Source: Kitasatospora herbaricolor | GTDB lineage: Bacteria > Actinomycetota > Actinomycetes > Streptomycetales > Streptomycetaceae | Assembly: GCF_030813695.1 (NCBI RefSeq) | Contig: NZ_JAUSVA010000002.1 | Coordinates: 496,001 to 560,000 of the forward strand | Direction: 5' to 3' | DNA: 64,000 nt | Shown: in pieces, positions 4,258 through 58,191 of the stretch | Layout: each line of letters begins with the position of its first letter | Numbering within the stretch: the stretch's first letter is position 1 | Made by a program: the position numbers and the translations under genes | The notes under the pieces: model-generated | What the model was told of the DNA's origin: nothing | Databases searched by the model: none | The model's input: the letters and a program-made list of their open reading frames with translations, nothing else

Positions 4258-4292
4258 ACCGTATTATTGACCGAGCGCTCGGTCAATAATAC
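4258..4292 (-). promoter_or_regulatory. D1 promoter with perfect 32-bp palindromic operator
   Basis: Bases 4261-4292 form a perfect palindrome; the half-site is GTATTATTGACCGAGC. Read on the minus strand it contains TTGACC (4286-4281), a 17-bp spacer and TACGGT (4263-4258), a good -35/-10 pair about 50 bp before the D1 ATG. The operator therefore covers the whole promoter, as expected for TetR-type repression. TetR1 at 5975 is the likely ligand (inference). Confidence 0.8.
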
Positions 4293-4392
4293 GGACGGAA
4301 CTGCCCGGCCGGACGGTCAGGATCCTCCGGCACCGCACAGCACGACCGTTGCGGGCCGTGCCGCCCGGAACGCCGGCCCGGCCCCGGCGGCC

Positions 4393-8065: not shown

Positions 8066-8938
8066 CTACAGCGCGCGGCGGGCCTCGGCGATGCCCCGCG
8101 GATCCCAGCCGGGCCTGGGAACGGAGTCCAGCAGGAGCCGGGTGTAGGGGTGCCGGGGGCGGGCCAGCACCTCGGCGGTCGGGCCGGACTCGACGATCTT
8201 CCCCCGGCGCATCACGATCACCTCGTCGGTGACGCACCGCACCACCCCGAGGTCGTGGGTGATGAACAGGTAGCCGATGCCGGTCTCGGCCCGGATGTCC
8301 GCCAGCAGGTTGAGGATCTGCGCCTGGACGGACACGTCCAGCGCCGCCACCGCCTCGTCCAGGACCAGCACGGCCGGCTCGACCGCCAGCGCCCGGGCGA
8401 TCGCGACCCGCTGGCGCTGCCCGCCGGAGAGCTGCCGGGGCAGCGCGGCGGCCTCCCTGGTGCCGAGGCCCACCTGCTCCAGCAGCTCGGCGATCCGCCG
8501 GTCGTGATCGCCGTCCGGGAAGTGCAGCCGCAGCGTCTCCCGCAGCACGGCGCCGACGGGGGTGCGCGGGTCCAGCGAGAGGTACGGGTCCTGGAAGACC
8601 ATCTGCACCTCGCGGGCCCGGGCCAGCCGGTGCACCCGGCCTCGCCGGTGCTCGGTGCGGTCCCTGCGGTGCACCAGGACCCGGCCCGAGTCGGCGCTCT
8701 CCAGGCCCACGACGATCCGCGCGGTGGTGGTCTTGCCCGAGCCGGACTCCCCGACGATGCCCAGCGATCCGCCCTCGGCGAGGGTGAACGAGACGTCGTC
8801 CACCGCCTGGACGCTCCCGTAGGCCCGGTGCAGGCCGAGCACCTCCAGAACGGTCTTCCTCATCGACGGCTCCCCCTTCGGGCTGGTCGCGGTGCCCGTC
8901 CCCGGCCCGGGGCCGGCTTCCATAGGTGCCTCACGCAT
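8066..8938 (-). CDS. dppF: Dpp/Opp-type ABC transporter ATPase, second subunit
   Basis: 290 aa. Energises peptide (or nickel/sugar-like solute) uptake from the cytosolic face. Walker A GESGSGKTTTAR, Q-loop QMVFQDPY, signature LSGGQRQRVAIARALA and Walker B VLVLDEAVAALDV are intact; the usual Pro after the Walker B Glu is Ala. The oligopeptide-transporter C-terminal extension is cut short (ends DPRGIAEARRAL). The ATG at 8938 overlaps the upstream ATPase gene by 8 bp and follows GGGGAG. Last gene of the D4-dppABCDF series. Symbol given by position and family; substrate not established. Confidence 0.9.
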   Translation of the reverse strand: MREAPMEAGPGPGTGTATSPKGEPSMRKTVLEVLGLHRAYGSVQAVDDVSFTLAEGGSLGIVGESGSGKTTTARIVVGLESADSGRVLVHRRDRTEHRRGRVHRLARAREVQMVFQDPYLSLDPRTPVGAVLRETLRLHFPDGDHDRRIAELLEQVGLGTREAAALPRQLSGGQRQRVAIARALAVEPAVLVLDEAVAALDVSVQAQILNLLADIRAETGIGYLFITHDLGVVRCVTDEVIVMRRGKIVESGPTAEVLARPRHPYTRLLLDSVPRPGWDPRGIAEARRAL

Positions 8939-9908
8939 GGACGCTCCCCTCCCCCGTCCGGTCGCTGTGGTGGCAGGCCACCCGGCGGGCCGGCTCGCCG
9001 GCCACCGGCAGCAGCGCCGGTGCCTGCTGGCTGCAGAGGAAGGTCGCCAGCGGGCAGCGGGGAGCGAACGGGCAGCCCACCAGCTCCTCCTGGAGGCTCG
9101 GCGGCCGGCCCTCGATGGCCGCGAGCCGGCCCGCGGGAGCCTCCAGCCGTGGCGTCGAGTCGAGCAGCGCGGCCGTGTAGGGGTGGCGCGGGCGGTCGAA
9201 CAGGGCCTCGGCCGGGCCGGTCTCGGCGATCCGTCCGGCGTACATCACGTAGACCCGGTCGCTGATGGCGGCGGCGAGCCCGAGGTCGTGGGTGACGAAG
9301 AGCAGGCCGGTGCCGAAGCGGGTCCGGAGGTCCCCGAGCAGGGCGACGACCTCGGCCTGGGTGGTGACGTCCAGGGCCGTGGTGGGCTCGTCGGCCAGGA
9401 TCAGCGCCGGGTCTCCCATCAGGGCGGCGGCGATCATGACGCGTTGCAGCATGCCGCCGGACAGTTCGCCCGGGTACTGCCGCAGGGCGGCGGCGGTGAG
9501 GCCGACGGCCTCCAGCATCTCCGCGGCCCGGGCGGTGGCCGCGGCCGGGGCGGCGCCGGCGTTCAGCCGCACGCTCTCGGTGAGGAAGTCCCCGATCCGG
9601 CGGAGCGGGTTGATGGCGGCCCGCGGGTCCTGGAAGATCATGGCCGCGCTGCTGGTCCGCAGGCGGCGGAGCTGCTCGGGGGCCATGGTCAGGACGTCCT
9701 CGCCGTTGACCCGGACGGTGCCCTCGGTGCGGGCGCCGGCCGGGAGCAGCCCGAGGACGCTGCGCGAGGTGAGGCTCTTGCCGGAGCCGGACTCGCCGAC
9801 CAGGGCGACCGTCTCGCGGGCCTCGACGGTGAGGTCGACGCCGGCGAGCACGGGTCTGGCGGTGTTCGGCAGGCTCAGGCGGTAGGCCTGGATGTCGAGG
9901 GTGGTCAT
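8931..9908 (-). CDS. dppD: Dpp/Opp-type ABC transporter ATPase, first subunit
   Basis: 325 aa. Walker A GESGSGKSLTSR, Q-loop AMIFQDPRAAINPL, signature LSGGMLQRVMIAAALM and Walker B LILADEPTTALDV. The C-terminal oligopeptide-transporter domain is complete, including the cysteine-containing GCPFAPRCP region that in DppD-like subunits can hold an Fe-S cluster (family knowledge). ATG at 9908 shares ATGA with the stop of the preceding permease and follows AGGAGGG. Partner of the second ATPase at 8066. Confidence 0.92.
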   Translation of the reverse strand: MTTLDIQAYRLSLPNTARPVLAGVDLTVEARETVALVGESGSGKSLTSRSVLGLLPAGARTEGTVRVNGEDVLTMAPEQLRRLRTSSAAMIFQDPRAAINPLRRIGDFLTESVRLNAGAAPAAATARAAEMLEAVGLTAAALRQYPGELSGGMLQRVMIAAALMGDPALILADEPTTALDVTTQAEVVALLGDLRTRFGTGLLFVTHDLGLAAAISDRVYVMYAGRIAETGPAEALFDRPRHPYTAALLDSTPRLEAPAGRLAAIEGRPPSLQEELVGCPFAPRCPLATFLCSQQAPALLPVAGEPARRVACHHSDRTGEGSVHA

Positions 9909-10759
9909 CGGTCCCTCCTGGCGACCTGGTCGGCCCAGCGCTCGCCGACGACGTTGAAGGCGACCACGGTCAGCACGATGGCGGCGCAGGGCAGGATCGC
10001 CGACAGGGGGTAGCCGTGCTGGACGGCGGACTGGCCGTCGAAGACCATCCGGCCCCAGTCGGGCGTCAGCGCGGGTACGCCGAGCCCGAGGAAGGAGAGG
10101 CCGGCCAGGTCGATGAGGGCGTAGCCGAAGTTGACGGTGGACTGGGCGAGGACGACGGGGGCGATGCCCGGGACGACGTGCCGCAGGCAGATCTGCAGGC
10201 CGGAATGGCCCTGCACCTGGTACGCCTCCACGTACGGACGGCGGCGCTCGGCGAGCACCAGGGAGCGGGTGAGGCGGCTGACGTAGGGCAGGTAGGCGAT
10301 GGCGAGGGCGATCACCGGGGCGAGCAGGCCCTCGCCGTGGACCGAGACGATCAGGATCGCCAGCAGCATGCCGGGGAACGCGAAGACCAGCTCGGTGCTG
10401 CGGGACAGGACGGAGTCCAGCCAGCCGCCGCGCCAGGCGGCCGCCACCCCGACGGCGACGCCGGCCAGGGTGGAGAAGGCGACCACGCCGAGCGGTCCGA
10501 GCAGCGAGGTGCGGGCTCCGAGCAGCAGGCGGGACAGGGTGTCGCGGCCGGAGGCGTCGACACCGAGCAGGTGGTCCGCCGACGGCCCGGCGAGGGCGTT
10601 GCCCAGGTCGACGGCGTTGGGGTCGTACGGTGCCAGCCAGGGGGCGAGCAGCGCGGCGAGGACCACCAGGGCGACGAAGCCCAGGCAGAGCCGGTGCAGC
10701 GGTGCGCGGCTGGTGCGGATCCGGGCCAGGCCGGGCCGGCGCAGCAGGGTCGCGGTCAT
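9905..10759 (-). CDS. dppC: Dpp/Opp-type ABC transporter permease (DppC-like)
   Basis: 284 aa integral membrane subunit. The N-terminal membrane segment (FVALVVLAALLAPWLAPYDP) is followed by the conserved HLLGVDASGRDTLSRLLLGA and then the BPD_transp_1 region with about five further segments. The EAA-type loop that docks on the ATPases lies near YVEAYQVQGHSG. The end VVAFNVVGERWADQV is typical of DppC. ATG at 10759 overlaps the stop of the DppB-like gene by 4 bp, so translation is coupled. Confidence 0.92.
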   Translation of the reverse strand: MTATLLRRPGLARIRTSRAPLHRLCLGFVALVVLAALLAPWLAPYDPNAVDLGNALAGPSADHLLGVDASGRDTLSRLLLGARTSLLGPLGVVAFSTLAGVAVGVAAAWRGGWLDSVLSRSTELVFAFPGMLLAILIVSVHGEGLLAPVIALAIAYLPYVSRLTRSLVLAERRRPYVEAYQVQGHSGLQICLRHVVPGIAPVVLAQSTVNFGYALIDLAGLSFLGLGVPALTPDWGRMVFDGQSAVQHGYPLSAILPCAAIVLTVVAFNVVGERWADQVARRDR

Positions 10760-11715
10760 GCGGCGGACCTCCTCGGCCCGAGGGTGACCCTGGGGTCGAC
10801 CAGCGGGTGCAGCAGGTCGACGACCAGGTTCACCGTCATGAACAGGCCGACCATGATCAGGGAGATGGCCTGCACGGTGGGGAAGTCCTTGGTGGTGGTG
10901 GACAGTTCGAGGAGCTGCCCGATGCCGCCGACGCTGAACGCGGACTCCACCAGAACGGTGCAGACCAGCAGGGTGGAGACGATCAGCCCGCCGGTGGTGA
11001 GGACGGTGCCGAGCGCGTTGCGGAACACGTGCCGGCGGATCACCTTGTGGTCGGAAACCCCGCGGCTGCGGGCCACGGTGACGTGCTCCTGGCCGAGGAC
11101 CTCCAGCATCGCGGCGCGGGTGACCCGGGCGAGCATGCCGATCAGGTAGAGCGCCAGGGCGACGGCGGGCAGGGTCAGGTGCCAGATCATCTGGCCGAGG
11201 CCGTCGCCGGTGCCGCCGGTGGGGAACCAGCCGAGCTTCACCGCGAACAGGCCCTGCAGCAGGACGGCCGCGACGAAGGACGGCGTGCCGAGCGCGAAGG
11301 TGGTGCTGACCAGGATGGTGGAGTCGGCGGCGCCGCCGCGCACCGCGCCGATCCAGCCCAGCAGCAGGCCGAGCGCGACGACCAGCACGAGGGCCATCCC
11401 GACCAGCAGCAGGGTGCTGGGCAGGCGGTCCGCGAGCAGCCGGGACACGTCGGTGCGGTAGGTGATCGAGCGGCCGAAGTCGCCGTGCAGGATCTGGCCG
11501 GTCCACCGCAGGTACTGGAGCACGAACGGGTCGTCCAGGTGGTACTGGGCGTTGATCGCCTTCAGCGCCTCCGGTGAGGCCGAGCGGCCGGAGAGCAGGA
11601 AGCTGGCCGGGTTGCCCGGCGCCAGGTACATCGCGCCGAAGATCACGAACGAGGCGCCGAACAGCGTGGCGGCCATCTCGGCCAGCCGGCGTGCGGCGAA
11701 TCTCAGGAAGCTCAC
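10756..11715 (-). CDS. dppB: Dpp/Opp-type ABC transporter permease (DppB-like)
   Basis: 319 aa. The N-terminal helix (ATLFGASFVIFGAMYLAPGN) and HGDFGRSITYRTDVSRLLADRL are signatures of DppB/OppB; five more membrane segments follow. The docking loop is around VTVARSRGVSDHKVIRRHVF. The GTG at 11715 overlaps the stop codon of the binding-protein gene (GTGA), so it is translationally coupled. Pairs with the DppC-like permease to form the channel. Confidence 0.92.
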   Translation of the reverse strand: MSFLRFAARRLAEMAATLFGASFVIFGAMYLAPGNPASFLLSGRSASPEALKAINAQYHLDDPFVLQYLRWTGQILHGDFGRSITYRTDVSRLLADRLPSTLLLVGMALVLVVALGLLLGWIGAVRGGAADSTILVSTTFALGTPSFVAAVLLQGLFAVKLGWFPTGGTGDGLGQMIWHLTLPAVALALYLIGMLARVTRAAMLEVLGQEHVTVARSRGVSDHKVIRRHVFRNALGTVLTTGGLIVSTLLVCTVLVESAFSVGGIGQLLELSTTTKDFPTVQAISLIMVGLFMTVNLVVDLLHPLVDPRVTLGPRRSAA

Positions 11716-13370
11716 CGGGCCGCTCCCACGTCGGCCGCCCACGGGTAGTACATGTACGAGATGGTGGTGGGCGCGCCGGTGATCCTCTTGTTCAGGAACA
11801 CGGCGGTCGGCCACTCCGCGACCGGTATCCACAGCAGCTGGTCGGAGGCGATCTTCTGGAGCTGCGCCTCGATCGCGAACCGCTGGGCGGGGTCGGCGGT
11901 GGTGGTGGCCTTCTTGACCAGGTCGTCGTAGGCGGGGTCGCTGAATCCCGCGTAGTTCTGGAAGGCCCCGGTCTTGAAGTTGGCCAGCAGGTCCAGCGGG
12001 TCGGTGATCGAGTCGTAGTACGTCTCGGGGAACATGTCGATGCCCTCGCGTGCCTCGGCCGAGGTGAAGAGCGAGGTGAAGGCGTTCGGCGCGATGGTCT
12101 TCAGCCGGACGTCCAGGCCGATGCCGGTGCCGGCCGCCTGCACGGCGGTGGCCAGCAGCGAGACGTCCTGGCCGATCGGGCTGGTGGCGACCGTGACGGT
12201 CTTGCCGGCCGCGCCCGCCTCCTTGATCAGGGCCTTGGCCCGGGCGAGGTCGGGGGTGGTGGGGGTGAGGCCCTCGAAGGCCTCCTTCCGGCTCTCCGCG
12301 GGGGCGGCCGCCCAGGCGGCGCGGGTGGTGAGGGAGCCGGTGACGGTGCCCGCGCCGCCGAGGCCGGCCTTGACGAAACCGGAGCGGTCCAGCGCGAGGG
12401 AGAGCGCCTGGCGGACCCGGACGTCGCCGAGCACGCCGCTCATGTTGGTGACGTTGACGTTGACGGTGCTCAGGCCCTCGCCGAACCAGAGGGTGCCGGC
12501 GCCGCTGCTCCGCAGCCGCTCGTAGCTCTCGGTGGGGATCAGGTAGCCGCCGTCGGCCTCGCCGGTGATCATGGCGTTGACCCGGGCCGAGGGGTCGGTG
12601 AGGAAGCGGAACTCGGCCTTGGCCGCCTTCGCCTTGGTACCCCAGTAGCTGTCGAAGCGGCGCAGTTCCAGGGACTGGCCCTTGTTCCAGGCGCCGAGCT
12701 CGAACGGGCCGGTGCAGTCCAGGCTGCCGGTGGTGCCGTAGTCCTTGCCCGCGGCCTCGATGCCGGCCTTGGCGGCCACCACGCCGGCGGCGGTCGCCAT
12801 GTACTGGTTGAACTGCGAGTCCGGCTGGACGAGCTTCACGGTGACCTGGAGCGGGCCGGTCCTGGTGACCGTGCTGACGTTCTGGAACTGCTGGGCCCAG
12901 GCGGCGGCGTTGTCGGGGTTGAGCTGCCGGCCGAGGCTGTAGACCACGTCGTCGGCGGTCAGCACGCTGCCGTCGTGGAAGTGCACGCCCGGGCGCAGGT
13001 CGTAGACCCAGGTGGTGGGGTCGGGGTTGGACGCCTTCTCCGCGAGGCCCGGGGCCAGCGTGAGCTGCGGGGTCCACCGCATCAGGCTCTCGCAGACGTT
13101 GGAGAGGATGGTGTTCTGCGGGTAGTCGAACGCGGCGATGTAGTCGAGCGTGGGGGGCTCGGCGTACAGCGCCCAGGTGAAGGAGTCGACGTCACCCTTG
13201 GCGGCGGGCGTGTCCTGGGAGAGCTGATAGGACGAGCCGCCGCCGGTGTCACCGCTCTTCGGCGGCCCGGCGCAGGCCGCGACCAGGGCGAGGGCCGCGA
13301 GGGCCGCGACGGGCAGGGCCGGCCGGCGGTGGGACGAACGGGATCTGGACCCGTGCTGGGGGTCTGCCAT
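11712..13370 (-). CDS. dppA: peptide ABC transporter substrate-binding lipoprotein (DppA/OppA-like)
   Basis: 552 aa of the SBP family 5. The signal LPVAALAALALVAACAG carries a lipobox with the modified Cys near residue 34. Family landmarks include the cluster-5 segment around VYDLRPGVHFHDGSVLTADD and TFNVNMT-like NVNVTNMSGVLGDVRVRQAL. It captures peptides or related solutes outside the membrane and delivers them to the two permeases. ATG at 13370 follows GAAGAGAG; a GTG eight codons earlier is less likely. It begins 109 bp after D4 on the same strand, without an obvious terminator between, so D4 and the transporter are probably one transcript. Preference for arginine-, citrulline- or agmatine-like ligands is a hypothesis from context only. 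Confidence 0.9.
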   Translation of the reverse strand: MADPQHGSRSRSSHRRPALPVAALAALALVAACAGPPKSGDTGGGSSYQLSQDTPAAKGDVDSFTWALYAEPPTLDYIAAFDYPQNTILSNVCESLMRWTPQLTLAPGLAEKASNPDPTTWVYDLRPGVHFHDGSVLTADDVVYSLGRQLNPDNAAAWAQQFQNVSTVTRTGPLQVTVKLVQPDSQFNQYMATAAGVVAAKAGIEAAGKDYGTTGSLDCTGPFELGAWNKGQSLELRRFDSYWGTKAKAAKAEFRFLTDPSARVNAMITGEADGGYLIPTESYERLRSSGAGTLWFGEGLSTVNVNVTNMSGVLGDVRVRQALSLALDRSGFVKAGLGGAGTVTGSLTTRAAWAAAPAESRKEAFEGLTPTTPDLARAKALIKEAGAAGKTVTVATSPIGQDVSLLATAVQAAGTGIGLDVRLKTIAPNAFTSLFTSAEAREGIDMFPETYYDSITDPLDLLANFKTGAFQNYAGFSDPAYDDLVKKATTTADPAQRFAIEAQLQKIASDQLLWIPVAEWPTAVFLNKRITGAPTTISYMYYPWAADVGAAR

Positions 13371-13479
13371 CGGTGTTCTCTCTTCCGTGCTCACGGGGGT
13401 GGCGAGGAGATCTGTCAGCGGGCTGCGGAGCTGTGGGGGCGCCGCCGCGGTGTCCCGGGGGCGGCTACGGGCACACCGG

Positions 13480-14490
13480 TCACACGGTGCGCCGGGCCGC
13501 CGGCACCTGCTGGGTGATGCAGTGGACGCCGCCGCCGCCGTAGGCGATCACGCGGGAGCGGACACCCACGACCTTGCGGCCGGGCAGGGCGGCGGCGAGC
13601 ACGGCCAGCGCGCCCTCGTCCTCGGGGACGTCCGCCACCGGGACGACCACTCCACCGTTGGCGATGTAGAAGTTGAGGTAGCCCACCTCGGTCTCCTTGC
13701 CGTTGACCTGGACGAATGCGCTCTGCGGCAGGTCGATGACCTCCAGCTTGCGGCCCCGGGCGTCGACGGCGGCCTCCAGTACGGCCCGGTTGGCACGCAT
13801 CCGCTCGAAGTCGGGGTGCGCGGGGTCGGCGGGCAGCTGGACGACGACCTTGCCCGGCGCGACGAAGGCGCAGACACCGTCCACGTGGCCGTCCGTCTCG
13901 GTGTCCAGCAGACCGCCGTACGGCAGCCAGATCACGGTGCTGACGCCGAGCTTGGCGACCAGTTCGGCCTCGATCTCGGCCTTGCTCATGCCGGGGTTGC
14001 GGTTCGGGTTGAGCAGGCACTGCTCGGTGGTGATCAGGGTGCCCTCGCCGTCGACGGTGATCGCGCCGCCTTCGAGGATCATCCGGGAGTCGATCCGCTC
14101 GACGCCGAGGCGCTCCAGCAGGGCGGCGGCGATCCTGTCGTCGGTGTCGTAGGGGTGGTGCTTCTCGCCCCAGGCGTTGAAGCGGAAGTCGACGCCGGCG
14201 CGCTCGCCCTCCAGGCCGAGGACGAAGATCGGGCCGGAGTCGCGGAACCAGGAGTCGTCCAGGGGCAGTTCGACGACCTCGACCTCGTCGCCGCACAGGG
14301 CGCGGGCCTCCTCGCCCTGCCCCGGGCGGGCGACCATGGTCACCGGCTCGAACTCGGCGATCGCCCGGGCGACCTGCGCGTACTCGCGCTTGACCTCCTC
14401 GAAGGTGTCGCCCCACAGCTCGACCCTGGTGGGCCAGGCCATCAGGCAGCCGTCGTGCTCGGTCCACTCGGCCGGCATGCGAAACGTCAT
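13480..14490 (-). CDS. cytosolic agmatine deiminase family protein (D4)
   Basis: 336 aa, starting directly with the catalytic domain (MTFRMPAEWTEHDGCLMAWP), so it is the only paralogue without an export signal. Motifs: DDSWFRDSGPIF, EGGAITVDGEG, DGHVDGVCAF and GGGGVHC with Cys324. Length and motif wording are closest to canonical agmatine deiminase (agmatine to N-carbamoylputrescine plus ammonia), but no putrescine-pathway partner is encoded here. ATG at 14490 follows TAGGAG. A degenerate TetR2/3 box (14505-14518) sits in its leader. It precedes the peptide importer, suggesting it acts on an imported guanidino compound or on peptides after uptake (inference). Confidence 0.92.
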   Translation of the reverse strand: MTFRMPAEWTEHDGCLMAWPTRVELWGDTFEEVKREYAQVARAIAEFEPVTMVARPGQGEEARALCGDEVEVVELPLDDSWFRDSGPIFVLGLEGERAGVDFRFNAWGEKHHPYDTDDRIAAALLERLGVERIDSRMILEGGAITVDGEGTLITTEQCLLNPNRNPGMSKAEIEAELVAKLGVSTVIWLPYGGLLDTETDGHVDGVCAFVAPGKVVVQLPADPAHPDFERMRANRAVLEAAVDARGRKLEVIDLPQSAFVQVNGKETEVGYLNFYIANGGVVVPVADVPEDEGALAVLAAALPGRKVVGVRSRVIAYGGGGVHCITQQVPAARRTV

Positions 14491-14504
14491 GGTGCTCTCC
14501 TAGG

Positions 14505-14518
14505 TGAATTTTCAGTCA
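14505..14518. promoter_or_regulatory. degenerate TetR2/3-type operator in the D4 leader
   Basis: TGAATTTTCAGTCA matches the core and right arm of the consensus TTGACTGAA-N2-TTCAGTCAA; the left arm is lost. It lies 15-28 bp before the D4 ATG, so binding would block the leader rather than a -35 box. Confidence 0.55.
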
Positions 14519-14631
14519 GGGTGGAGGGGTGAGGCCGGCCCGGGGCTCCGGTCGTTTCTCGGACCGGGACGCCCGGGACGGTCGGCCGCCGTCCGCACGA
14601 GGGCGGCCGACCCGGGGAGCGGGGCTCCCGG

Positions 14632-15795
14632 TCAGTAGGCGGGCGGCACGGCCGGCTGCGACTGCGTGGCGCAGTGGATCCCGCCGCCGCCGCTCGCGAT
14701 GCCGTCGATGTCGAGCTGGACGACGTCGCGTCCGGGGTACGTCGCCTGCAGGATCGCGTAGGCGACCCCGTCCGCGTGGGCGTCGCCGAACTGCGGCACG
14801 AAGACGGCGCCGTTGGCCACGTAGAAGTTGGTGTAGCCGGCCAGGAACTCCTTGCCCTTGCCCCGGATCGCCTTGGGGTCGGGACAGGGCAGTTCGGTGA
14901 CCGCCAGCCGGCGGCCCCGGGCGTCGGTCGCGGTCCGCAGGATCTCCTTGGCCTGCTCGTGGACCGCCACCCACTTCGGGTCGGCACCGGCTGCGGGGCG
15001 GTCCAGGAGCACCTTGCCGGGCGCGGTGAACCGGGCCAGGTAGTCGACGTGCGCGTCGGTGATGTCCGCACCGGCCAGCCCGGGGATCCAGACGACCTTG
15101 TCGATCCCAAGGGCCGACTTGAGCGCCTGCTCGACCTGGTCCCGGCTCATGCCCGGGTTGCGGTTGGCGTTCACCAGCGAACTCTCGGTGGCGAGCAGGG
15201 TGCCCTGGCCGTCGGTCTCCAGCGAGCCGCCCTCGCCCGTGAACGGGGCCCGGATCCGCTCGACGCCGTACTGCTCCAGCAGCGTCGCTGCCGCGGCGGC
15301 GTCGTTGGCGTAGGGCTGGTAGTACGGCGTACCGCTCTTGCCCCAGCCGTTGAAGTTGGTGTCCACCCCGGCGACGGCGCCGGGGGCGACCACGAAGGTC
15401 GGGCCGAAGTCCCGGATCCACAGGTCGTCGTTCGGGATCTCCAGGACCTCGATGCCGTAGTAGCCGCCCCGGCCGCAGGCGTACCGGGCGTCGGCGGCCT
15501 GGGAGGGCCGGGCGAGCAGGACGACCGGCTCGTAGCGCGAGATCTCGTAGGCGAGCCTGGCGATGTCCCTGCGGACCGCCGGGAGTTGGTCCTGCCAGAC
15601 GGACGAGAGTGCCGGCCAGGCCATGAAGGTGCGCTGGTGCCGCTCCTCCTCGGCGGGCATCCGCAGGGCGGCGCCCGACGGGCTGACGGCGGCGCGGGCG
15701 GTGACGGGAAGGGTCGCGCCGAGGGCCGCCAGGGGCAGCGCCGCCGCGCCGAACTGGAGCAGCCGGCGCCGGGACGGAAGTGCTGACGTGTTCAA
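14632..15795 (-). CDS. Tat-exported agmatine/peptidylarginine deiminase family protein (D5)
   Basis: 387 aa. SRRRLLQFG plus a hydrophobic core ending in TARAAV is a twin-arginine signal with a signal peptidase I-type end, not a lipobox. Catalytic landmarks: NDDLWIRDFGPTF, EGGSLETDGQG, DAHVDYLARF, GGGGIHC with Cys375. An insertion (ACGRGGYYGIEVLEI) differs from the other copies. The start is a TTG at 15795 with GGGAG 6 nt upstream; no better start lies nearby. A strong promoter (TTGACT-N17-CAGGAT, 15866-15838) overlapped by a TetR2/3 box drives it. It precedes D4 by 141 bp and may be co-transcribed with it. Groups with D3 and D6. Confidence 0.92.
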   Translation of the reverse strand: MNTSALPSRRRLLQFGAAALPLAALGATLPVTARAAVSPSGAALRMPAEEERHQRTFMAWPALSSVWQDQLPAVRRDIARLAYEISRYEPVVLLARPSQAADARYACGRGGYYGIEVLEIPNDDLWIRDFGPTFVVAPGAVAGVDTNFNGWGKSGTPYYQPYANDAAAAATLLEQYGVERIRAPFTGEGGSLETDGQGTLLATESSLVNANRNPGMSRDQVEQALKSALGIDKVVWIPGLAGADITDAHVDYLARFTAPGKVLLDRPAAGADPKWVAVHEQAKEILRTATDARGRRLAVTELPCPDPKAIRGKGKEFLAGYTNFYVANGAVFVPQFGDAHADGVAYAILQATYPGRDVVQLDIDGIASGGGGIHCATQSQPAVPPAY

Positions 15796-15837
15796 GAAGA
15801 CTCCCTGGAGGGTGCTGGGAGGTGGGGTATGCCCCGC

Positions 15838-15866
15838 ATCCTGCCCCCAACTGAAAATTCAGTCAA
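15838..15866 (-). promoter_or_regulatory. D5 promoter and TetR2/3-type operator
   Basis: Minus strand: TTGACT (15866-15861), 17-bp spacer, CAGGAT (15843-15838). The operator 15847-15866 has a perfect TTCAGTCAA arm and a six-of-nine match in the other arm. The arrangement is the same as at D7 and ATPase-tatA. Confidence 0.75.
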
Positions 15867-16006
15867 TACCCGCGAGTCCCGAGAGCCCACGCTTCGGCCC
15901 GAGCGGGACCACCGGCACCGCTCTGGACCCGCAGCCGAAGCCCGGGGCGCCCCGGCCCGGCCGTACTGAGCAGGGAGAGTCGCCGAACGGACAGCACCAG
16001 GGCAAT

Positions 16007-16024
16007 CCTGATGATCTGATCAGG
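16007..16024. promoter_or_regulatory. palindrome upstream of TetR2
   Basis: CCTGAT/ATCAGG arms around 6 bp, about 43-60 bp before the TetR2 GTG, near where a -35 box would lie. It does not resemble the TTCAGTCAA box. Possible regulatory site of unknown ligand. Confidence 0.3.
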
Positions 16025-16066
16025 AAATGCCCCGAAGCGGCCGAGCGCCGGGTAGAGTGACCGCTC

Positions 16067-16639
16067 GTGTCCGACCGTCGAACCGAAATACTCAGAGCCG
16101 CCACCCGGGTCATCACCCGCCGTGGCGTGCGCGGCCTGCGCGTGGGCGAACTGGCAGCCGAGGCGGGGGTGTCGACCTCGCTGATCTACTACCACTTCAC
16201 CGACCGGGCGGGCATCCTGCGCCAGACGCTGGAGTTCATCAGCGACCGGGCCGACCGCTACACCGCGGAACGCGACCCCGGCACACTCCCCGAGAGCCCC
16301 CGGGTCGAGCTGGAGCAAGTCCTGCTGCTGGAGCTCCAGGACACCGCCGAGGTACGGGAGAACAGCACCGCCTGGGGCGAGTTGAGGGCCAGCGCGGTCT
16401 TCGACCCGGAGCTGCGCGAGGAGCTGGCCAGGGCCACCCACACCTGGGTCCACGAGATCGCCGAGCTGCTGGGGCGGGCACACCCGGCGGGCACCGCACC
16501 GGCGCACGCGGCCTCGGCGGAGCGACTGACCGCCCTGCTGGAGGGCCTCAGCGTCCGCTGGCTCAGCGGGTCGCTCCCCTTGGACCACGCCCGCCGGCTG
16601 CTGCGGGACGCGATCGCAGCCGAGCTGCGACCGGCCTGA
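16067..16639 (+). CDS. TetR-family regulator (TetR2)
   Basis: 190 aa. DNA-binding domain at residues 3-50 (EILRAATRVITRRG, VGELAAEAGVSTSLIYYHFT). The ligand domain shares long identical stretches with TetR3 (ENSTAWGELRASAVF; LTALLEGLSVRWLSGSLPL), so the two are paralogues with near-identical recognition helices. GTG at 16067 lies 8 nt after a TAGAGT box (16053-16058), suggesting a leaderless mRNA. Divergent from D5 and followed by a strong terminator. Presumed to bind TTGACTGAA-N2-TTCAGTCAA sites at 14505, 15847, 16790, 20683 and perhaps 21663; inferred from position and from sharing these sites with TetR3. Confidence 0.9.
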   Translation: MSDRRTEILRAATRVITRRGVRGLRVGELAAEAGVSTSLIYYHFTDRAGILRQTLEFISDRADRYTAERDPGTLPESPRVELEQVLLLELQDTAEVRENSTAWGELRASAVFDPELREELARATHTWVHEIAELLGRAHPAGTAPAHAASAERLTALLEGLSVRWLSGSLPLDHARRLLRDAIAAELRPA

Positions 16640-16680
16640 GGGTCGCCCGCGCCGGACGCGGCGCCGGTTCACCGCACGGC

Positions 16681-16716
16681 GGTGGAGGCCCCTGCCGTGC
16701 GGCAGGGGCCTCCACC
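16681..16716 (+). terminator. terminator of TetR2
   Basis: Perfect 16-bp stem (GGTGGAGGCCCCTGCC and its complement) with a 4-nt loop GTGC, 41 bp after the TetR2 stop. Confidence 0.85.
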
Positions 16717-16730
16717 GCCCCCGGGCCCCC

Positions 16731-16754
16731 TCACCCTCACCCTCACCCTCACCC
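16731..16754. repeat. TCACCC hexamer repeat
   Basis: Four exact tandem copies of TCACCC between the TetR2 terminator and the next promoter. No function inferred. Confidence 0.8.
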
Positions 16755-16788
16755 TCGGGCGGAGTTCGGGCCGTTGCCGGTCGCAACT

Positions 16789-16822
16789 CTTGACTGAATT
16801 TTCAGTCAATGCGACAGTGTGG
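16789..16822 (+). promoter_or_regulatory. ATPase-tatA promoter/operator, identical to that of D7
   Basis: TTGACT (16790-16795), 17-bp spacer, GACAGT (16813-16818). The operator TTGACTGAATTTTCAGTCAA (16790-16809) has perfect 9-bp arms around TT. All 34 bp recur, inverted, at 20670-20703 upstream of D7. It points at the ATPase-tatA pair. Confidence 0.8.
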
Positions 16823-17010
16823 CTGCATCAAGACAGGCCCACTGCCCGGTACTGCACAGCCGGCCGGGTCGACCCGGCGCATCGCAACGGGCCGGGTCGA
16901 GCCAGGTCGCTCCGGGTCCATGGGCACCCCCGTGACCACCTCGGTGCGAGCCACGGGCCGATGCCCTCCCGCAGGGCGCCGAACTCCAGGACACCGGGAG
17001 AACCCCTCCG

Positions 17011-17418
17011 ATGCTTCCGCACTTGCTGACCCCGCCCGTCGGCGCTCCGCCCGGGTTCCGGTTCGACATCCGCCCGACCGCGACACCGGACGGGGTCGGG
17101 ACGGTGCGACGGCTGCTGCGCGACGCGCTCGTCGCCGTCCACCTCGACCCGGACACACCCTGCCTGCTGCTCTCGGAACTGCTGACCAACGCCCTGGTCC
17201 ACGGCGACACCGCCTCCGTGATCATGGAATTGCGGGCCGGACGCCTCCTGATCGCCGTCGCCGACCACTCCCCCGCACGCGTGGAACGACTGCCCGAATG
17301 CTCCGAGCGGACGAGCGGACGTGGCCTCGCCCTGGTGGAGGCCCTGGCCGACGCCTGGGGGGTCTCCCCCTTCGGCGCCGGCGGAAAGGCCGTGTGGGCG
17401 ACGGTCGCGGCGGCCTGA
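17011..17418 (+). CDS. RsbW/SpoIIAB-like ATP-binding protein
   Basis: 135 aa with a single HATPase_c_2 domain of the GHKL fold. N-box LLLSELLTNALVHGD, G1-like region IAVADHS and G2-like SGRGLALVEALADAWG are seen. Streptomycetes carry dozens of such small proteins; some are anti-sigma-factor kinases, most are uncharacterised. ATG at 17011 follows GGGAG by 10 nt. It is 103 bp upstream of tatA on the same strand, behind the TetR2/3-type promoter at 16790, so it is probably part of the deiminase regulon. No partner anti-anti-sigma factor is encoded nearby. Confidence 0.85.
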   Translation: MLPHLLTPPVGAPPGFRFDIRPTATPDGVGTVRRLLRDALVAVHLDPDTPCLLLSELLTNALVHGDTASVIMELRAGRLLIAVADHSPARVERLPECSERTSGRGLALVEALADAWGVSPFGAGGKAVWATVAAA

Positions 17419-17521
17419 CGGCGACGGAACACCCCGCGCCCGGCCGATCCGGCGGGCGCCGACACCCCACGGCAGCGCCGGGCGAACCCCGCCGACCTGC
17501 CGACCGCACGAAAGCACCCCC

Positions 17522-17863
17522 ATGCTCCGCAACGGACTCGACCCCTGGCACATCCTGCTCGTGGTGGCCGTGGTCATCCTGCTGTTCGGCTCGAAGAAGC
17601 TGCCCGACATGGCGCGCGGCCTGGGCAGATCCCTGCGGATCCTGAAGGCCGAGACGGCCGCCCTGCGCGAGGACGACCCCACGCCCGAGAGCGGCACCGC
17701 GGCCGAGAGCGGCACCGCGGCCGAGGGCGGTACCGCGGCCGAGGCGCCGTGCCCGGCGGTGGCCGCGCCCGAGCGAACGTCCCCCGGGCCGCAGGCCGCC
17801 GGGCCGCAGGCCGACCGGTCCCAGGGCCACCGGTCGCTGCCCGGGCACAGCGGCACCGCCTGA
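17522..17863 (+). CDS. tatA: twin-arginine translocase subunit TatA
   Basis: 113 aa. One N-terminal membrane helix (WHILLVVAVVILLFG), the hinge FGSKKLPD and the amphipathic helix MARGLGRSLRILKAE define TatA, which oligomerises to let folded twin-arginine proteins cross the membrane. The acidic C-terminal tail contains repeats of AESGTAA. No tatC or tatB is nearby, so this is an extra copy that would work with core Tat subunits encoded elsewhere. It lies between D5 and D6, among genes encoding six Tat substrates, downstream of a promoter shared with D7. Dedicated boosting of Tat capacity for the deiminases is the natural inference. ATG at 17522, preceded by a weak ribosome site. Confidence 0.93.
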   Translation: MLRNGLDPWHILLVVAVVILLFGSKKLPDMARGLGRSLRILKAETAALREDDPTPESGTAAESGTAAEGGTAAEAPCPAVAAPERTSPGPQAAGPQADRSQGHRSLPGHSGTA

Positions 17864-17916
17864 GCCCGGCGGTCGGCCCCACGCCGGGCCGGCCGACCGG
17901 GCGGACCGGGCAGACC

Positions 17917-17942
17917 GGGGCAGGCACCGAGGTGCCTGCCCC
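17917..17942. terminator. bidirectional terminator between tatA and D6
   Basis: 12-bp arms GGGGCAGGCACC and its complement around a 2-nt centre, 54 bp after tatA and 92 bp after the D6 stop on the other strand. Confidence 0.75.
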
Positions 17943-18033
17943 GTCCGCATGCCCGTTCATCGGCTCATCGGCTCATCGGTACGCCGGTACAGCTCTTTGT
18001 CCGCATGCCTGCAGTGCCCCCTCCACCCCGGGA

Positions 18034-19197
18034 TCAGCCGGCCGCCGGGGTGCCGGGCTGGTCGTGGGTGGAGCAGTGGATCCCACCGCCGCCGGAGGCG
18101 ATGTTGTCGATCTTGAGCGGGACGATGTCCCGCCCCGGGAAGTGCTCGCGCAGGATCTGCCGGGCGCGGTCGTCGGCCGGTCCGTCCCCGAAGCGCGGCA
18201 GGAACAGCGACTTGTTGGCGACGTAGAAGTTGATGTACGAGGAGACGAAGGCGTCGCCGCGGCCGGTGATCCGGTCCGGGTCGGGCTGAGGCAGCTCGAT
18301 CACCTGCAGGGGCTTGCCGTTCGCGTCGGTGGCGTCCCGCAGCACCTCCTTCGCCTGGGCCGCCGAGCGCGACCAGACGTCCTCGGGCGCACCGGGGAAC
18401 GGCTGGTCCAGCAGCACGACGCCCGGCGCGGCGAACCGCACCAGGCAGTCGACGTGGGCGTCGGTGATGTCCTGGTCCCGGACGCCGGCGAACCAGATCA
18501 CCTTCGTCACGCCCAGGGCCCGCTTGAGCTCGGCCTCGATCTCGTCCCTGGACCTGCCGGGGTTGCGGCGGTCGTTGACCACCGAGCTCTCGGTCACCAG
18601 CAGGGTGCCCTGGCCGTCGGTCTCGAAGGATCCGCCCTCGGCGACCAGGGAGGTGCTGACCCGCTCGATGCCGTACCGGGCCAGCAGCGCGCCGGCCAGG
18701 GCGGTGTCGTTTCCGTGCTCCTTCTGCTTGTTGCCCCAGCCGCTGAAGTTGAGATCGACGCCCTTGACGGTGCCGGAGTCCTCCACGAAGACCGGTACGG
18801 TGTCCCGCGCCCACAGGTCGTCCACCGGTAGGGCGACGACCTCCACCCCGTCCCCGCAGGCGCGCTGCGCGGCGTCGGCCTGGGCCGGCCGGGCGAACAT
18901 CACCACCGGCTCGTAGCGGCCGACGGCCCGGGCCAGACCGGCGATGTCCTGCCGGACGTCCGGAAGTTGACTGTCCCAGATGCCGGTGGAGGCGGGCCAG
19001 GACATGAAGGTCCGCGCGTGGCTCTCCCACTCCGCCCCGAACCGCCGGCCGGGCGGTGTTCCCCCGCCGGGCGACGCCGGCTCCGGCGCCGGCTCCTCGT
19101 CCCCCGACGGTGAGCAGGCGACCCCACCGAGGGTCAGCAGGCCGGCACCGGCGGCGGCACGCAGCATGGTCCGACGGGACAGGGCGAGATCTGGCAC
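18034..19197 (-). CDS. Tat-exported lipoprotein deiminase, agmatine deiminase family (D6)
   Basis: 387 aa. SRRTMLRAAAGAGLLTLGG followed by VACS is a twin-arginine lipoprotein signal; the modified Cys is near residue 24. A Ser/Glu/Pro/Gly linker precedes the catalytic domain with DDLWARDTVPVF (the usual Gly before Pro is Val), EGGSFETDGQG, DAHVDCLVRF and GGGGIHC (Cys375). The residues after the catalytic Cys (STHDQP) also depart from the common xTQQQP. GTG at 19197 follows GGAG by about 9 nt; longer upstream frames lack coding character. It lies 165 bp after D7 on the same strand and has no box of its own, so it is probably read from the D7 promoter. Confidence 0.92.
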   Translation of the reverse strand: MPDLALSRRTMLRAAAGAGLLTLGGVACSPSGDEEPAPEPASPGGGTPPGRRFGAEWESHARTFMSWPASTGIWDSQLPDVRQDIAGLARAVGRYEPVVMFARPAQADAAQRACGDGVEVVALPVDDLWARDTVPVFVEDSGTVKGVDLNFSGWGNKQKEHGNDTALAGALLARYGIERVSTSLVAEGGSFETDGQGTLLVTESSVVNDRRNPGRSRDEIEAELKRALGVTKVIWFAGVRDQDITDAHVDCLVRFAAPGVVLLDQPFPGAPEDVWSRSAAQAKEVLRDATDANGKPLQVIELPQPDPDRITGRGDAFVSSYINFYVANKSLFLPRFGDGPADDRARQILREHFPGRDIVPLKIDNIASGGGGIHCSTHDQPGTPAAG

Positions 19198-19362
19198 AGG
19201 ACAACTCCGAGGGGGAAGGGGTGACTTCGGCCGGGAGGCGGCGCCGCCGGGGCCCGGCCCCGGGCAGGCGGGGTCCGCACAGCGCCGGTCCGGGCAGGGC
19301 CGCGCCGGCACGCGGCAGGAAAGGACGGAACGTGATGGGACGGGACCGGGACCGGGACCGGG

Positions 19363-20526
19363 CTACGGCAGTGGCTCGTGCATGGTCGAGCAGTGGATCC
19401 CGCCGCCGCCGGCCATCAGCCGGTCGACGTCCAGCTGGACGACCTCCCGGCCGGGGAAGGCCGCGGCCAGCGCCCGCCGGGCCGCGGCGTCCTTCGCCTG
19501 GTCGCCGAACTGCGCCGTGATCACCGCGCGGTTGACCAGGTGGAAGTTGAGGTAGGAGTCGACGAACTTCGAGTCCCGCGACCGCACGGTGTCGGGACCG
19601 TCGACCCTGATGACCTGGAGCCTGCGGCCCCGGGCGTCGGTGGCCCGGGAGAGGATGTCGAACTGCTGACGGGCGTCGCGGGCCCAGACGTCGTTCCGGT
19701 CCGCCGGGGGCAGCTGCACCAGCACCACGCCCGGCCGGACGAACCGCGAGGTGACGTCGATGTGGTCGTCGGTGATGTCCTGGCCCTTGATGCCGGGCAC
19801 CCAGATCATCCTGTCGGCGCCGTAGACGTGCAGCACCGCCTCCTCGACCTCGGCCCGGCTCCACCCCCGGTTGCGGTTCTTGTTGACGAGGCTGCTCTCG
19901 GTGGCCATCACGGTGCCGTCGCCGTCCGTCTCGATCGCGCCCGGCTCGCCCACGAAGTCGGCGGCGCTGAAGCGCAGGCGGTTGCGGTCGGCGATGCCCC
20001 GCGCGACCTCGGCGTCGTCGGCATGGGTCTGCTTGTTGCCCCACCCGTTGAAGTTCAGGCCGACGGCGTCCAGGGCCCCGTAGCCGTCGCGCCGGAACAC
20101 CGGGGCGGTGTCGCGCATCCAGAGGTCGTCGGTGGGGATCGCGTCGGTGACCGTCACCTCGGGCCCGCACCGGGCGCGGGCGTCCGCGGCCGTCCCGGAG
20201 TCCGGGGCGCACATCACCACCGGCTCGAACCGTGCGACGGTCCGGGCGATCAGCGCGATGTCCTGCTGCACACCGGCCAGCTGGCGCCCCCAGACCGACC
20301 GGCGGGACGGCCAGGACATCCAGGTCCGGGCGTGCGGCACGTCGTCCGCGGGGACCCACCAGCGCGGCAGCGGTCCGTCCGCGGACGGGGCCGCGGCGGC
20401 CGCCCGGGGGCCGAGCGCCAGGCCGGCCGCGCCCAGGCCCACCGCGCCGAGGAGGGATCGCCGCGAGGGGCCGGCTCCGAAGAGGCGGCCGACGAGGGAG
20501 GGTCCCGCAGTGCCGGGGTCGTTCAT
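19363..20526 (-). CDS. Tat-exported agmatine/peptidylarginine deiminase family protein (D7)
   Basis: 387 aa. SRRSLLGAVGLGAAGLALG, then AAAAAPS, is a twin-arginine signal with a signal peptidase I end. Motifs: DDLWMRDTAPVF, EPGAIETDGDG, DDHIDVTSRF and GGGGIHC with Cys379. The EGG motif that is conserved in the other six copies reads EPG here. It groups with D1 and D2 (VWGRQLAGVQQDIALIARTV; LDAVGLNFNGWGNKQTHADD). ATG at 20526 has GGAG 7 nt upstream. The promoter/operator at 20670-20703 matches that of ATPase-tatA exactly. Three GGGACC hexamers lie just past the stop. Probably co-transcribed with D6. Confidence 0.92.
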   Translation of the reverse strand: MNDPGTAGPSLVGRLFGAGPSRRSLLGAVGLGAAGLALGPRAAAAAPSADGPLPRWWVPADDVPHARTWMSWPSRRSVWGRQLAGVQQDIALIARTVARFEPVVMCAPDSGTAADARARCGPEVTVTDAIPTDDLWMRDTAPVFRRDGYGALDAVGLNFNGWGNKQTHADDAEVARGIADRNRLRFSAADFVGEPGAIETDGDGTVMATESSLVNKNRNRGWSRAEVEEAVLHVYGADRMIWVPGIKGQDITDDHIDVTSRFVRPGVVLVQLPPADRNDVWARDARQQFDILSRATDARGRRLQVIRVDGPDTVRSRDSKFVDSYLNFHLVNRAVITAQFGDQAKDAAARRALAAAFPGREVVQLDVDRLMAGGGGIHCSTMHEPLP

Positions 20527-21031
20527 GTGCGTCTCCAGATCAAGTATCGCCCGTGTCCGGCCGGGTGCGCCGCCCGGGCGCGGGGCTCGGCCGGGCAGGC
20601 GGGCCCAGGGCGGCCGGGCCGGGCCTGAGCCGACGGACCTACGGCGATCCCCGTAAGGGCGTGCCGTACCCACACTGTCGCATTGACTGAAAATTCAGTC
20701 AAGGACGACTCCAGGGGACTGCCCCACAGCTTGAGCGGCCCCGCACCCGGGCGGCCCGGCAGCGGCGCCGAGCGGTCGAACCGCGGTTGACCTGCGATGT
20801 TCGCGCGCCTGGACCACCCGCGCGGAGCCGGCCGCGGGCGGGGCCGTCCGCAGCCCTGACGGGAGGGGGGCGGCCTCCGGCGGCATGGCGGAAGCGTGAT
20901 GCGACCCGCCGACGGACACGAACGGACCGACCGGGGCAGGGGCTCGTGGACGTACCCGCCCGGACCCTGGCGCCGCCGCACGGCGCCGGCGACCGGGCAC
21001 GGGCCGGCAGCGGGCGAGGTCCAGCGGAGGT
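20527..21031. other. D7/TetR3 intergenic region
   Basis: 505 bp. It holds the D7 promoter/operator at 20670-20703; the rest, between the operator and the TetR3 stop, shows no credible gene on either strand and no strong hairpin. Confidence 0.5.
20670..20703 (-). promoter_or_regulatory. D7 promoter/operator
   Basis: Minus strand: TTGACT (20702-20697), 17 bp, GACAGT (20679-20674). The operator 20683-20702 has perfect 9-bp arms TTGACTGAA/TTCAGTCAA around 2 bp. The 34-bp block is an exact inverted copy of 16789-16822; identity stops abruptly on both sides. Confidence 0.82.
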
Positions 21032-21613
21032 CTAGCGGCGGGCGAGCATCTCCAGCTCACCGTCGATCGCGCCGGCCATCAGCTCCCGCGCGTGGGACAG
21101 CGGCAGACTGCCGCTCAGCCACCGCACGCTGAGGCCTTCGAGCAGTGCGGTCAGGCGCTCGGCCGAGCCGGCCAGGGCGGCGGCGCCGCCCATCGGCCGG
21201 ACCTTGCCGAGCAGTTCCGCGACCTCCTGGACCCAGATCAGCGTGGACCGGGCCAGGTCCTCCCGCAGTTCGGGCTCGAAGACCGCGCTCGCCCGCAGCT
21301 CCCCCCATGCGGTGCTGTTCTCGCGCACCTCGGGAACGTCCTGGAACTCCAGCAGGAGCGTCTGTTCCAGCTCGGCCCTGGCGTCGAGCGGCGGGGCGCC
21401 GGGATCGCGCCGGGTGGTGTACCGCTCGGCGCGGTCGCTGATGAACTCCAGGGTCGACCGCAGGATGCCGGTGCGGTCCTTGAAGTGGTAGTAGATCAGC
21501 GCCGTGGACACACCGGCCTCGGCCGCCAACTCCTCCACGCGCAGCCCGCGGACCCCGCGCCGGGCAATGACCCGCGCGGCCGCTTCCATGATCGAGGTTC
21601 TACGGTCTGCCAC
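21032..21613 (-). CDS. TetR-family regulator (TetR3)
   Basis: 193 aa, paralogue of TetR2. DNA-binding domain SIMEAAARVIARRG, VEELAAEAGVSTALIYYHFK; shared ligand-domain blocks ENSTAWGELRASAVF and LTALLEGLSVRWLSGSLPL. The conservation extends into the ligand pocket region, so both may sense the same or similar molecules. GTG at 21613 lies 8 nt after TAGGGT (21627-21622), the same apparent leaderless layout as TetR2. A box variant lies upstream at 21663-21680. It is proposed to control D6/D7 and to cross-talk with TetR2 at shared operators; which protein binds which site cannot be decided from sequence. Confidence 0.9.
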   Translation of the reverse strand: MADRRTSIMEAAARVIARRGVRGLRVEELAAEAGVSTALIYYHFKDRTGILRSTLEFISDRAERYTTRRDPGAPPLDARAELEQTLLLEFQDVPEVRENSTAWGELRASAVFEPELREDLARSTLIWVQEVAELLGKVRPMGGAAALAGSAERLTALLEGLSVRWLSGSLPLSHARELMAGAIDGELEMLARR

Positions 21614-21915
21614 GGGGCAACACCCTACCCGGTGGTCCCACCCGGACAGAACCCTCGGGACTGACTGAAATTACAGTCGGCTAGAGTGCCTCCAGCATGC
21701 CCGGGCCGACTGCCCCGACCCCAGTGCCCCGAACCGGCCCCGACCGACGGGACCGGACCGCCACCGCGCGGGCCCCGCCTGACGGTGCCACGGCCCCCGC
21801 ACGGGCGCCCGCCCCTCGGCCGGACCGCCCCGGCCGGACCGCACGCCCCGGTGGCGGCACCGGCCCGGGGCGCCGCACCCACCCGAACACCCACCCCGAG
21901 CCGCCGGAGGCCATC
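21614..21915. other. TetR3/kinase divergent intergenic region
   Basis: 302 bp with the TetR3 -10 box, a TetR2/3-type box variant (21663-21680) and a TAGAGT element (21682-21687) pointing at the kinase. An ATG-initiated Pro/Arg-rich frame (21697-21915) continues into the kinase gene but looks non-coding. Confidence 0.45.
21663..21680. promoter_or_regulatory. variant TetR2/3-type operator
   Basis: GACTGAAATTACAGTC (21664-21679) is a 16-bp inverted repeat with one mismatch and keeps GACTG/CAGTC of the consensus, though the centre differs. Suitable for autoregulation of TetR3 and/or control of the kinase. Confidence 0.5.
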
Positions 21916-41670: not shown

Positions 41671-41696
41671 GGGCGGCGCCCCCGGGGGCGCCGCCC
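41671..41696 (-). terminator. terminator downstream of ligA
   Basis: Perfect 26-bp palindrome with half-site GGGCGGCGCCCCC, 7 bp past the ligA stop codon. Confidence 0.75.
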
Positions 41697-58001: not shown

Positions 58002-58191
58002 GCCTTCGGGAGTCTCTGAACGACCGACCGGGGTCGGGACGCGGCCGGCCCGGGGCCGTTCGAAAGGCCGGGTGGCGCGCCGGCCGGACTACTCGCGCCT
58101 TCGGGAGTCTCTGAACGACCGACCGGCGTCAGGACGCGGCCGGCCCGGGGCCGTTCGAAAGGCCGGGTGGCGCGCCGGCCGGACTACTCGC
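58002..58191. repeat. 95-bp tandem duplication
   Basis: Two copies (58002-58096, 58097-58191) that differ at only two sites near their start (GGGTCGG versus GCGTCAG). The right copy contains the stop codon of the 70-aa gene at 58184; the left copy is intergenic. A recent slippage or unequal-crossover product. Confidence 0.9.

Follow-up and report, generated by a model that had tools for sequence, protein, structure and literature searches.

An extra tatA gene and presumed Tat-exported deiminase genes share a putative operator-promoter in Kitasatospora

Among the closest described systems, of which we cite excerpts, PhoD of Bacillus subtilis, encoded in phoD-tatAd-tatCd, is exported specifically by TatAdCd of the twin-arginine translocation (Tat) pathway (PMC3827258). 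Streptomyces carries one to three tatA copies in each of 11 genomes, belonging to clades tatA1, tatA2 and tatA3 (e.g., SCO1633 and SCO3768; PMC5001237), and AguR of Pseudomonas aeruginosa is a TetR-family repressor of aguBA that binds between the -35 and -10 elements and is released by agmatine (PMC4287709). Going by these excerpts, cargo-linked Tat genes, tatA multiplicity and a TetR repressor of agmatine deiminase are known already. Here we describe a 64,000-nucleotide stretch of the genome of the soil bacterium Kitasatospora herbaricolor (contig NZ_JAUSVA010000002.1, positions 496,001 to 560,000; hereafter the window), in which an extra tatA gene, TatAx, and some of the genes for agmatine-deiminase-like enzymes, numbered D1 to D7, lie near identical copies of a putative TetR operator-promoter.

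As in B. subtilis, where the nutrient is phosphate, the Tat genes adjoin presumed Tat cargo and would help its export in a given nutrient state. However, a whole TatA-TatC pair is present there, whereas the window offers a lone TatA, a single TatC in the genome, a presumed TetR pair and deiminase cargo; the Streptacidiphilus loci described below come nearer to the Bacillus case. With AguR the window has in common a TetR-type control of agmatine-deiminase genes and an operator that overlaps the promoter, here predicted from sequence, but it differs in its two paralogous TetRs, Tat-signalled deiminases, TatA gene and several operators. Extra tatA copies are found in Streptomyces likewise, although the excerpt of that report describes no link to a cargo regulon (PMC5001237). 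The peptidyl-arginine deiminase (PAD) of the citrulassin lasso peptides (WP_064069847.1), likewise a Streptomyces enzyme and compared with those of the window by description only, is encoded outside the peptide cluster (PMC9266682, PMC8498205, PMC12971885); the main text of the last paper has 0 occurrences of "Tat" or "TetR". An actinobacterial PADI type is treated in PMC8826395. Among the matches listed in the open-licence literature, we found neither a link between TetR, TatA and deiminases nor pertinent titles for agmatine deiminase with twin-arginine or for Kitasatospora with TatA and deiminase. Nor did these matches include a lone TatA tied by an operator, in several layouts, to an exported deiminase set.

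The two promoter copies are exact reverse complements over 34 nt (100%), and ungapped extension ends at their borders, which bears out the abrupt end of identity reported in the preliminary description. By chance, about 1e-8 exact inverted 34-mer pairs would be expected in the window, and this pair is its longest exact inverted match, self-palindromes aside. Perfect self-palindromes of 36 nt (4259-4294, in the D1-D2 gap) and 26 nt (41671-41696) also occur in the window. At the core of the 34-mer stands a 20-bp palindrome, TTGACTGAATTTTCAGTCAA, with TTGACT in its half-sites. It overlaps the -35 element (TTGACT), and GACAGT lies 17 nt downstream as a -10-like element, so that the 34-mer reads as a promoter with a putative operator over the -35 and the spacer. 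GACAGT is a poor sigma-70 match that is kept in relatives. Since the consensus promoter scanner did not accept this -10, the promoter assignment in the window rests on conservation; a conventional sigma-70 promoter was rejected, as the scanner reported none in 15700-21800. The earlier proposal that the repeat holds -35, operator and -10 thus stood for the palindrome over the -35, but its -10 is poor and went unreported by the scanner, yet is conserved. Gene orientation agrees with the proposal that one copy precedes ATPase-tatA and the other D7-D6: copy 1 (+) faces a HATPase_c_2 gene and then tatA, and copy 2 (-) faces D7 and then D6. The promoter has one and the same form at five ATPase sites, including that of the window, and 40 of the 41 D7-type sites, again with that of the window, lie within two mismatches.

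We scanned the whole genome (9.58 Mb) for sites with up to three mismatches to the palindrome. Only three were found, at 16790, 20683 and 15847, all in the deiminase cluster, against 0 with the reversed pattern. Weaker sites start at 14500 and 21661; 20 Markov shuffles of the window yielded 0 sites at five or fewer mismatches. The five window sites precede D4, D5/tetR1, ATPase-tatA, D7-D6 and tetR2 with a Ser/Thr kinase gene. At up to five mismatches, 45 D4-type sites were found, 34 of these at up to three, and weak sites also precede TetR2 in many relatives. The palindrome looks like the operator of a conserved Streptomycetaceae TetR regulon for agmatine-deiminase-like enzymes, both Tat-signalled and signal-less, which in relatives often takes in urease. 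Near D1-D3 the window scan found no site at up to five mismatches, on which ground we rejected a single regulon of all seven deiminases. As D1-D3 bear Tat signals yet no operator, the common effect on export of D1-D7 that had been anticipated for a tatA deletion is not predicted.

TatAx was recognized as a TatA by NCBIfam NF001854 (88.5 bits, cut-off 72) and by the Pfam model TatA_B_E (PF02416; 53.6 bits, cut-off 21). TatA_B_E has three matches in the genome: TatAx, one in a tatA1-tatC operon (C2:7498863-7499919) and a second solitary gene, tatA2 (C2:4165441), to which TatAx is closer than to tatA1. Because tatA1-tatC and tatA2 lie elsewhere in the genome, the notion that the window gene is the housekeeping copy was rejected. 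TatC is encoded by a single copy, in the tatA1-tatC operon (C2:7499263). TatAx had been called solitary; no tatC lies beside it, but it is not the only solitary copy. The layout suggests that the ATPase gene and tatA are co-transcribed.

We surveyed promoters and loci in 70 Kitasatospora genomes and in 391 genomes of the order, with two sets of 40 and 82 loci, some on the same contigs. Extra TatAs were defined as matches of at least 70 bits beyond one tatA2 per genome and counted by hand among the matches listed, which gave 18 genes in 15 of the 70 Kitasatospora genomes. An operator with 0 to 3 mismatches precedes the gene or its transcript in 12 of the 18 (12/70 genomes). Four of these share the operator-ATPase-tatA layout (G000, G016, G051 and, as inferred across a contig gap, G028); in five, one palindrome lies between divergent tatA and D6-type deiminase genes (G026, G037, G040, G047, G069); in two, operator-tatA stands beside a deiminase with its own site (G025, G064); and in G068 operator-tatA stands alone. 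Since it recurs in other genomes and layouts, the link between operator and TatA is no local accident. In contrast, 208 kb in 34 further tatA stretches, some of which overlap, contained no site at four or fewer mismatches; among these controls are the two G030 genes, of which one is an extra TatA, and a single gene of the two in G009. In the eight genomes where tatA directly follows the operator, the promoter always combines TTGACT with TACGGT or TACGCT, which is a better -10 than the window has; the spacer measures 18 in five of them and 17 in the other three. All 12 genomes with TatAx have at least seven PAD_porph genes; conversely, TatAx is carried by 12 of the 21 genomes with that many and by 0 of the 49 with six or fewer. 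The sequence evidence speaks clearly for a Tat subunit that is co-regulated with its presumed cargo, and the shared putative switch in its several layouts suggests that the cell adds export capacity exactly when it makes that cargo.

The regulon itself was found well beyond the window. Operators with at most one mismatch occur in 25/70 Kitasatospora genomes (reversed control 0/70) and exact ones in 9/391 genomes of the order (control 0/391). The eight exact-operator loci outside this genome all have a deiminase (8/8), and seven also have a TetR. An operator at up to four mismatches, a TetR and a PAD_porph gene occur together in 37/40 and 74/82 loci, with one and four loci, respectively, lacking the operator; because a TetR or an operator served to pick the loci, independent evidence comes from the other elements only. 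Named relative loci are the best 80 of at least 171 confirmed candidates. In 47/130 loci (e.g., L131:11934-12641 and L150:3009-3743), the stretch with TetR and deiminase also contains urease gamma/beta genes, and in 19 of these 47 an operator is found within 400 nt upstream of them; the window contains no urease genes. Urease in these stretches suggests that the regulon serves to free nitrogen from guanidine compounds.

Both regulators have the TetR_N and TetR C-terminal domains of the family, and their DNA forms an inverted repeat (I1) of 585 nt with 74% likeness. They scored 50.0 and 46.7 bits with the BetI equivalog TIGR03384, below its cut-off of 201.3. Relatives of tetR1 at E ≤ 1e-30 occur in 23/61 genomes, the closest named one among the matches listed being that of K. 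indigofera JCM 4646 (96%). As the helix-turn-helix text is nearly the same in the two proteins (VSTSLIYYHF and VSTALIYYHF), the simple reading is that both would bind one operator. D4 to D7 match PAD_porph over their full length (322-395 bits, cut-off 25), and seven of the eight PAD_porph genes of the genome lie in the window. Filing D4-D7 under AguA was rejected, since they score below the cut-off (381.8) of the equivalog TIGR03380 (D4, 349.7; D5, 286.2; D6, 240.9; D7, 228.6 bits; D3 scores 281.1), and for the same reason no single substrate was assigned to them; agmatine, another guanidine compound and arginyl ends of peptides are open candidates. The solved relatives of D7, the only one compared, include agmatine deiminases and Porphyromonas-type PADs. 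D4 is presumably cytosolic. The oligopeptide-type importer genes sit between D3 and D4, downstream of D4, with which they plausibly form one operon. The coordinates of all features are collected in Table 1.

Table 1. Operators, genes and neighbouring features of the deiminase cluster in the window
Feature	Position	Strand	Description
ABC (ATP-binding cassette) importer genes, oligopeptide type	8066..13394	-	SBP_bac_5, BPD/OppC-type permease, two ATPases (Pfam of four open reading frames)
D4	13480..14490	-	PAD_porph deiminase, no signal; PF04371, 394.9 bits
Weak fourth operator-like site	14500..14519	-	just upstream of D4; 5 mismatches
D5	14632..15795	-	PAD_porph deiminase, twin-arginine signal SRRRLLQFGAAALPLAALG by eye; PF04371, 357.5 bits
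Third operator	15847..15866	.	between D5 (-) and tetR1 (+); 3 mismatches; equivalents in relatives
tetR1	16067..16639	+	TetR_N and BetI-type C-terminal domain; PF00440, PF13977
Operator/promoter copy 1	16789..16822	+	upstream of ATPase-tatA; palindrome 16790-16809; exact inverted repeat, 0 mismatches in whole-genome scan
HATPase_c_2 gene	17011..17418	+	small, histidine-kinase-type ATPase domain; first gene behind copy 1; PF13581
TatAx (extra tatA)	17522..17863	+	113 amino acids; no adjoining tatC
D6	18034..19197	-	PAD_porph deiminase, Tat lipoprotein-type signal SRRTMLRAAAGAGLLTLGGVAC by eye; PF04371, 346.8 bits
D7	19363..20526	-	PAD_porph deiminase, twin-arginine signal SRRSLLGAVGLGAAGLAL by eye; PF04371, 322.1 bits
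Operator/promoter copy 2	20670..20703	-	upstream of D7-D6; palindrome 20683-20702; exact inverted repeat, whole-genome scan
tetR2	21032..21613	-	paralogue of tetR1, protein 75% identical
Weak operator-like site	21661..21680	.	between tetR2 (-) and divergent Ser/Thr kinase gene (+); 4 mismatches

The Ser/Thr protein kinase gene divergent from tetR2 spans 21697-23634, and another such gene lies between TatAx and TetR1 in one relative locus (L069:8065-9837). Farther off, positions 58002-58191 hold a 95-nt tandem pair with 98% identity.

Tat matches were present in 12/82 loci, seven of them clear (L109, L116, L122, L143, L149, L145, L178) and five weak; of four weak ones examined, none was an evident Tat gene (0/4), and two overlap urease open reading frames. 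In L178, a tatB-like open reading frame lies between TetR1 and an operator (L178:9648-9884); the contig ends within the gene behind this operator, the start of which resembles urease gamma by eye. Two Streptacidiphilus loci contain second Tat sets. In S. melanogenes (L246 842-2784), tatB-tatA-tatC is divergent from TetR2, and the interval between the two has a weak site (4 mismatches), in a locus that is partly N. In S. anmyonensis (L248 9461-12065), tatA-tatC and a Tat-signalled deiminase of D2 type, which adjoins TetR2, are divergent, and a tatB-like open reading frame lies between TetR1 and an operator with two mismatches. TatC adjoins the deiminase in the latter and TetR2 in the former. 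Both TatCs pass their NCBIfam models (175 and 183 bits, cut-off 133), as do both TatAs (82.5 and 79.6, cut-off 72). A TatB-type cut-off (96) is exceeded by one of the two TatB-like stretches (107.8), but not by the second (73.5). Two TatCs were counted in each of four Streptacidiphilus genomes and one in each of four other genomes.

The best reading of these data, and a probable one, is that TatA supply is inducible and matched to cargo load by a local TetR regulon. The 34-mer would be the operator-promoter of this regulon, whose enzymes would deiminate guanidine compounds outside and inside the cell, probably to scavenge nitrogen. By binding the same palindrome, which overlaps the -35 and the spacer, both TetR paralogues would keep D4 (with the importer), D5, D7-D6, ATPase-tatA and tetR2 repressed until some guanidine compound acts as inducer. 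Induction would then deliver several Tat-signalled deiminases and the extra TatA at once. As the genome encodes a single TatC, any export aided by TatAx must use the shared receptor; the extra TatA would join it on that TatC and supply more of the pore-forming subunit, so that export capacity may follow the cargo load.

A number of observations weigh against this reading. Six extra TatAs among the matches listed have no operator, and 9/21 genomes with at least seven deiminases have no operator-linked TatA, which makes TatA an accessory member of the regulon. G021 has the operator-ATPase unit without tatA. Taken together with the nine genomes, this indicates that TatA is dispensable and that the ATPase is possibly the target in the operator-ATPase layout. 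The Fisher values for TatAx against deiminase count (2.8e-8 over 70 genomes, 0.0017 among the 33 genomes with at least four deiminases) ignore relatedness, and the cut at seven was picked after the counts were seen. It may be that all 12 TatAx belong to a single family, which was carried about together with its promoter. In a tree without tatA1 and the five divergent other TatAs, the 12 operator-linked genes form one side of a branch (92/85); with these included, three changes are needed and two non-operator TatAs nest among TatAx, and the tree does not settle between one and several origins. In the window, the -10 is weak, the consensus scanner having given no match for GACAGT. A Tat signal was scored in 13/53 D7-type matches and in none of the other 40, and in 3/69 D4-type matches, of which at least one is seemingly a read-through of DNA upstream of the gene; these scores come from a simple pattern rather than a trained predictor, skip deiminase matches without the M[AS]WP motif and count some contigs twice. 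Because most D7 relatives are without the signal, the gene with the same promoter as tatA does not encode Tat cargo in every case, and the D7-type enzyme seems to be exported or cytosolic depending on the species. The Streptacidiphilus evidence is adjacency, given the weak S. melanogenes site. In S. anmyonensis, where the link between tatA and the deiminase is adjacency only, the gap between them has no site at up to five mismatches, the nearest one (5 mismatches) preceding TetR2. Two further species, S. jiangxiensis and S. fuscans, have their second TatC away from deiminases, and a 16-base core search in the genus matched 7/14 genomes against 2/14 for the reversed control.

TatAx might instead form pores selective for the deiminases, with tatA1 and tatA2 serving other Tat cargo, which we consider unlikely. 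It would fit a distinct TatAx group, with ETAA in all 12 operator-linked proteins where tatA2 has ETKA and with the branch noted above, as well as the Tat sets beside TetR2 in S. melanogenes and beside the Tat-signalled deiminase in S. anmyonensis. However, the non-operator TatA of G021 also has ETAA, and the TatAx core is nearly that of tatA2. A cargo-dedicated Tat system is expected to have its own TatC beside the cargo, whereas this genome has a single TatC. The same types of Tat-signalled deiminases do without TatAx in many genomes, TatAx is absent from 21 of the 33 genomes with at least four deiminases, and the regulon includes signal-less enzymes (D4 and the 40 D7-type matches). The "dedicated secretion" of the preliminary description was therefore too strong a term in view of the single TatC, the signal-less members, to which urease is added in relatives, and the many-deiminase genomes without TatAx.

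That the shared promoter is a by-product of duplication of a tetR-operator cassette, with the ATPase as its real target and functionless co-expression of tatA, also appears improbable. Such an origin agrees with the inverted repeat of tetR1 and tetR2, with the position of each operator behind a tetR in the same orientation, and with the operator-ATPase unit retained in G021. Nevertheless, tatA directly follows the operator in eight genomes, with its own conserved -10 and no ATPase, and TatAx is confined to deiminase-rich genomes. We regard it as very improbable that gene conversion or recent copying holds the 34-mer identical without regulatory constraint. Exact identity and its abrupt end would be expected in that case, but the palindrome with a downstream GACAGT or GAGAGT recurs at both places in relatives whose flanks have diverged. 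The two promoters of G016 differ in the centre and the -10 (GAGAGT/GACAGT), and those of G028 differ just past the -10. Gene conversion and a chance repeat were both rejected on this conservation, and inducible TatA supply through the TetR regulon stays our preferred interpretation.

To our knowledge, there is no clear explanation for the retention of several TatA genes by many bacteria. The level of TatA is thought to limit Tat export. In Kitasatospora, a shared operator links a single TatA to a single set of cargo in several layouts, and strains with and without this TatA occur in nature, so that the matching of TatA supply to cargo can be tested directly. The TatAx cassette is also a candidate inducible Tat boost for actinobacterial secretion hosts. 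More broadly, with chances that we put a little short of even, Streptomycetaceae may repeatedly recruit Tat subunits (in Kitasatospora TatA alone, in Streptacidiphilus TatBAC or TatAC) into a nitrogen regulon of deiminases and urease under TetR control, in part through single palindromes that drive tatA and cargo in opposite directions, so that export capacity would be induced with, and scaled to, a heavy cargo load.

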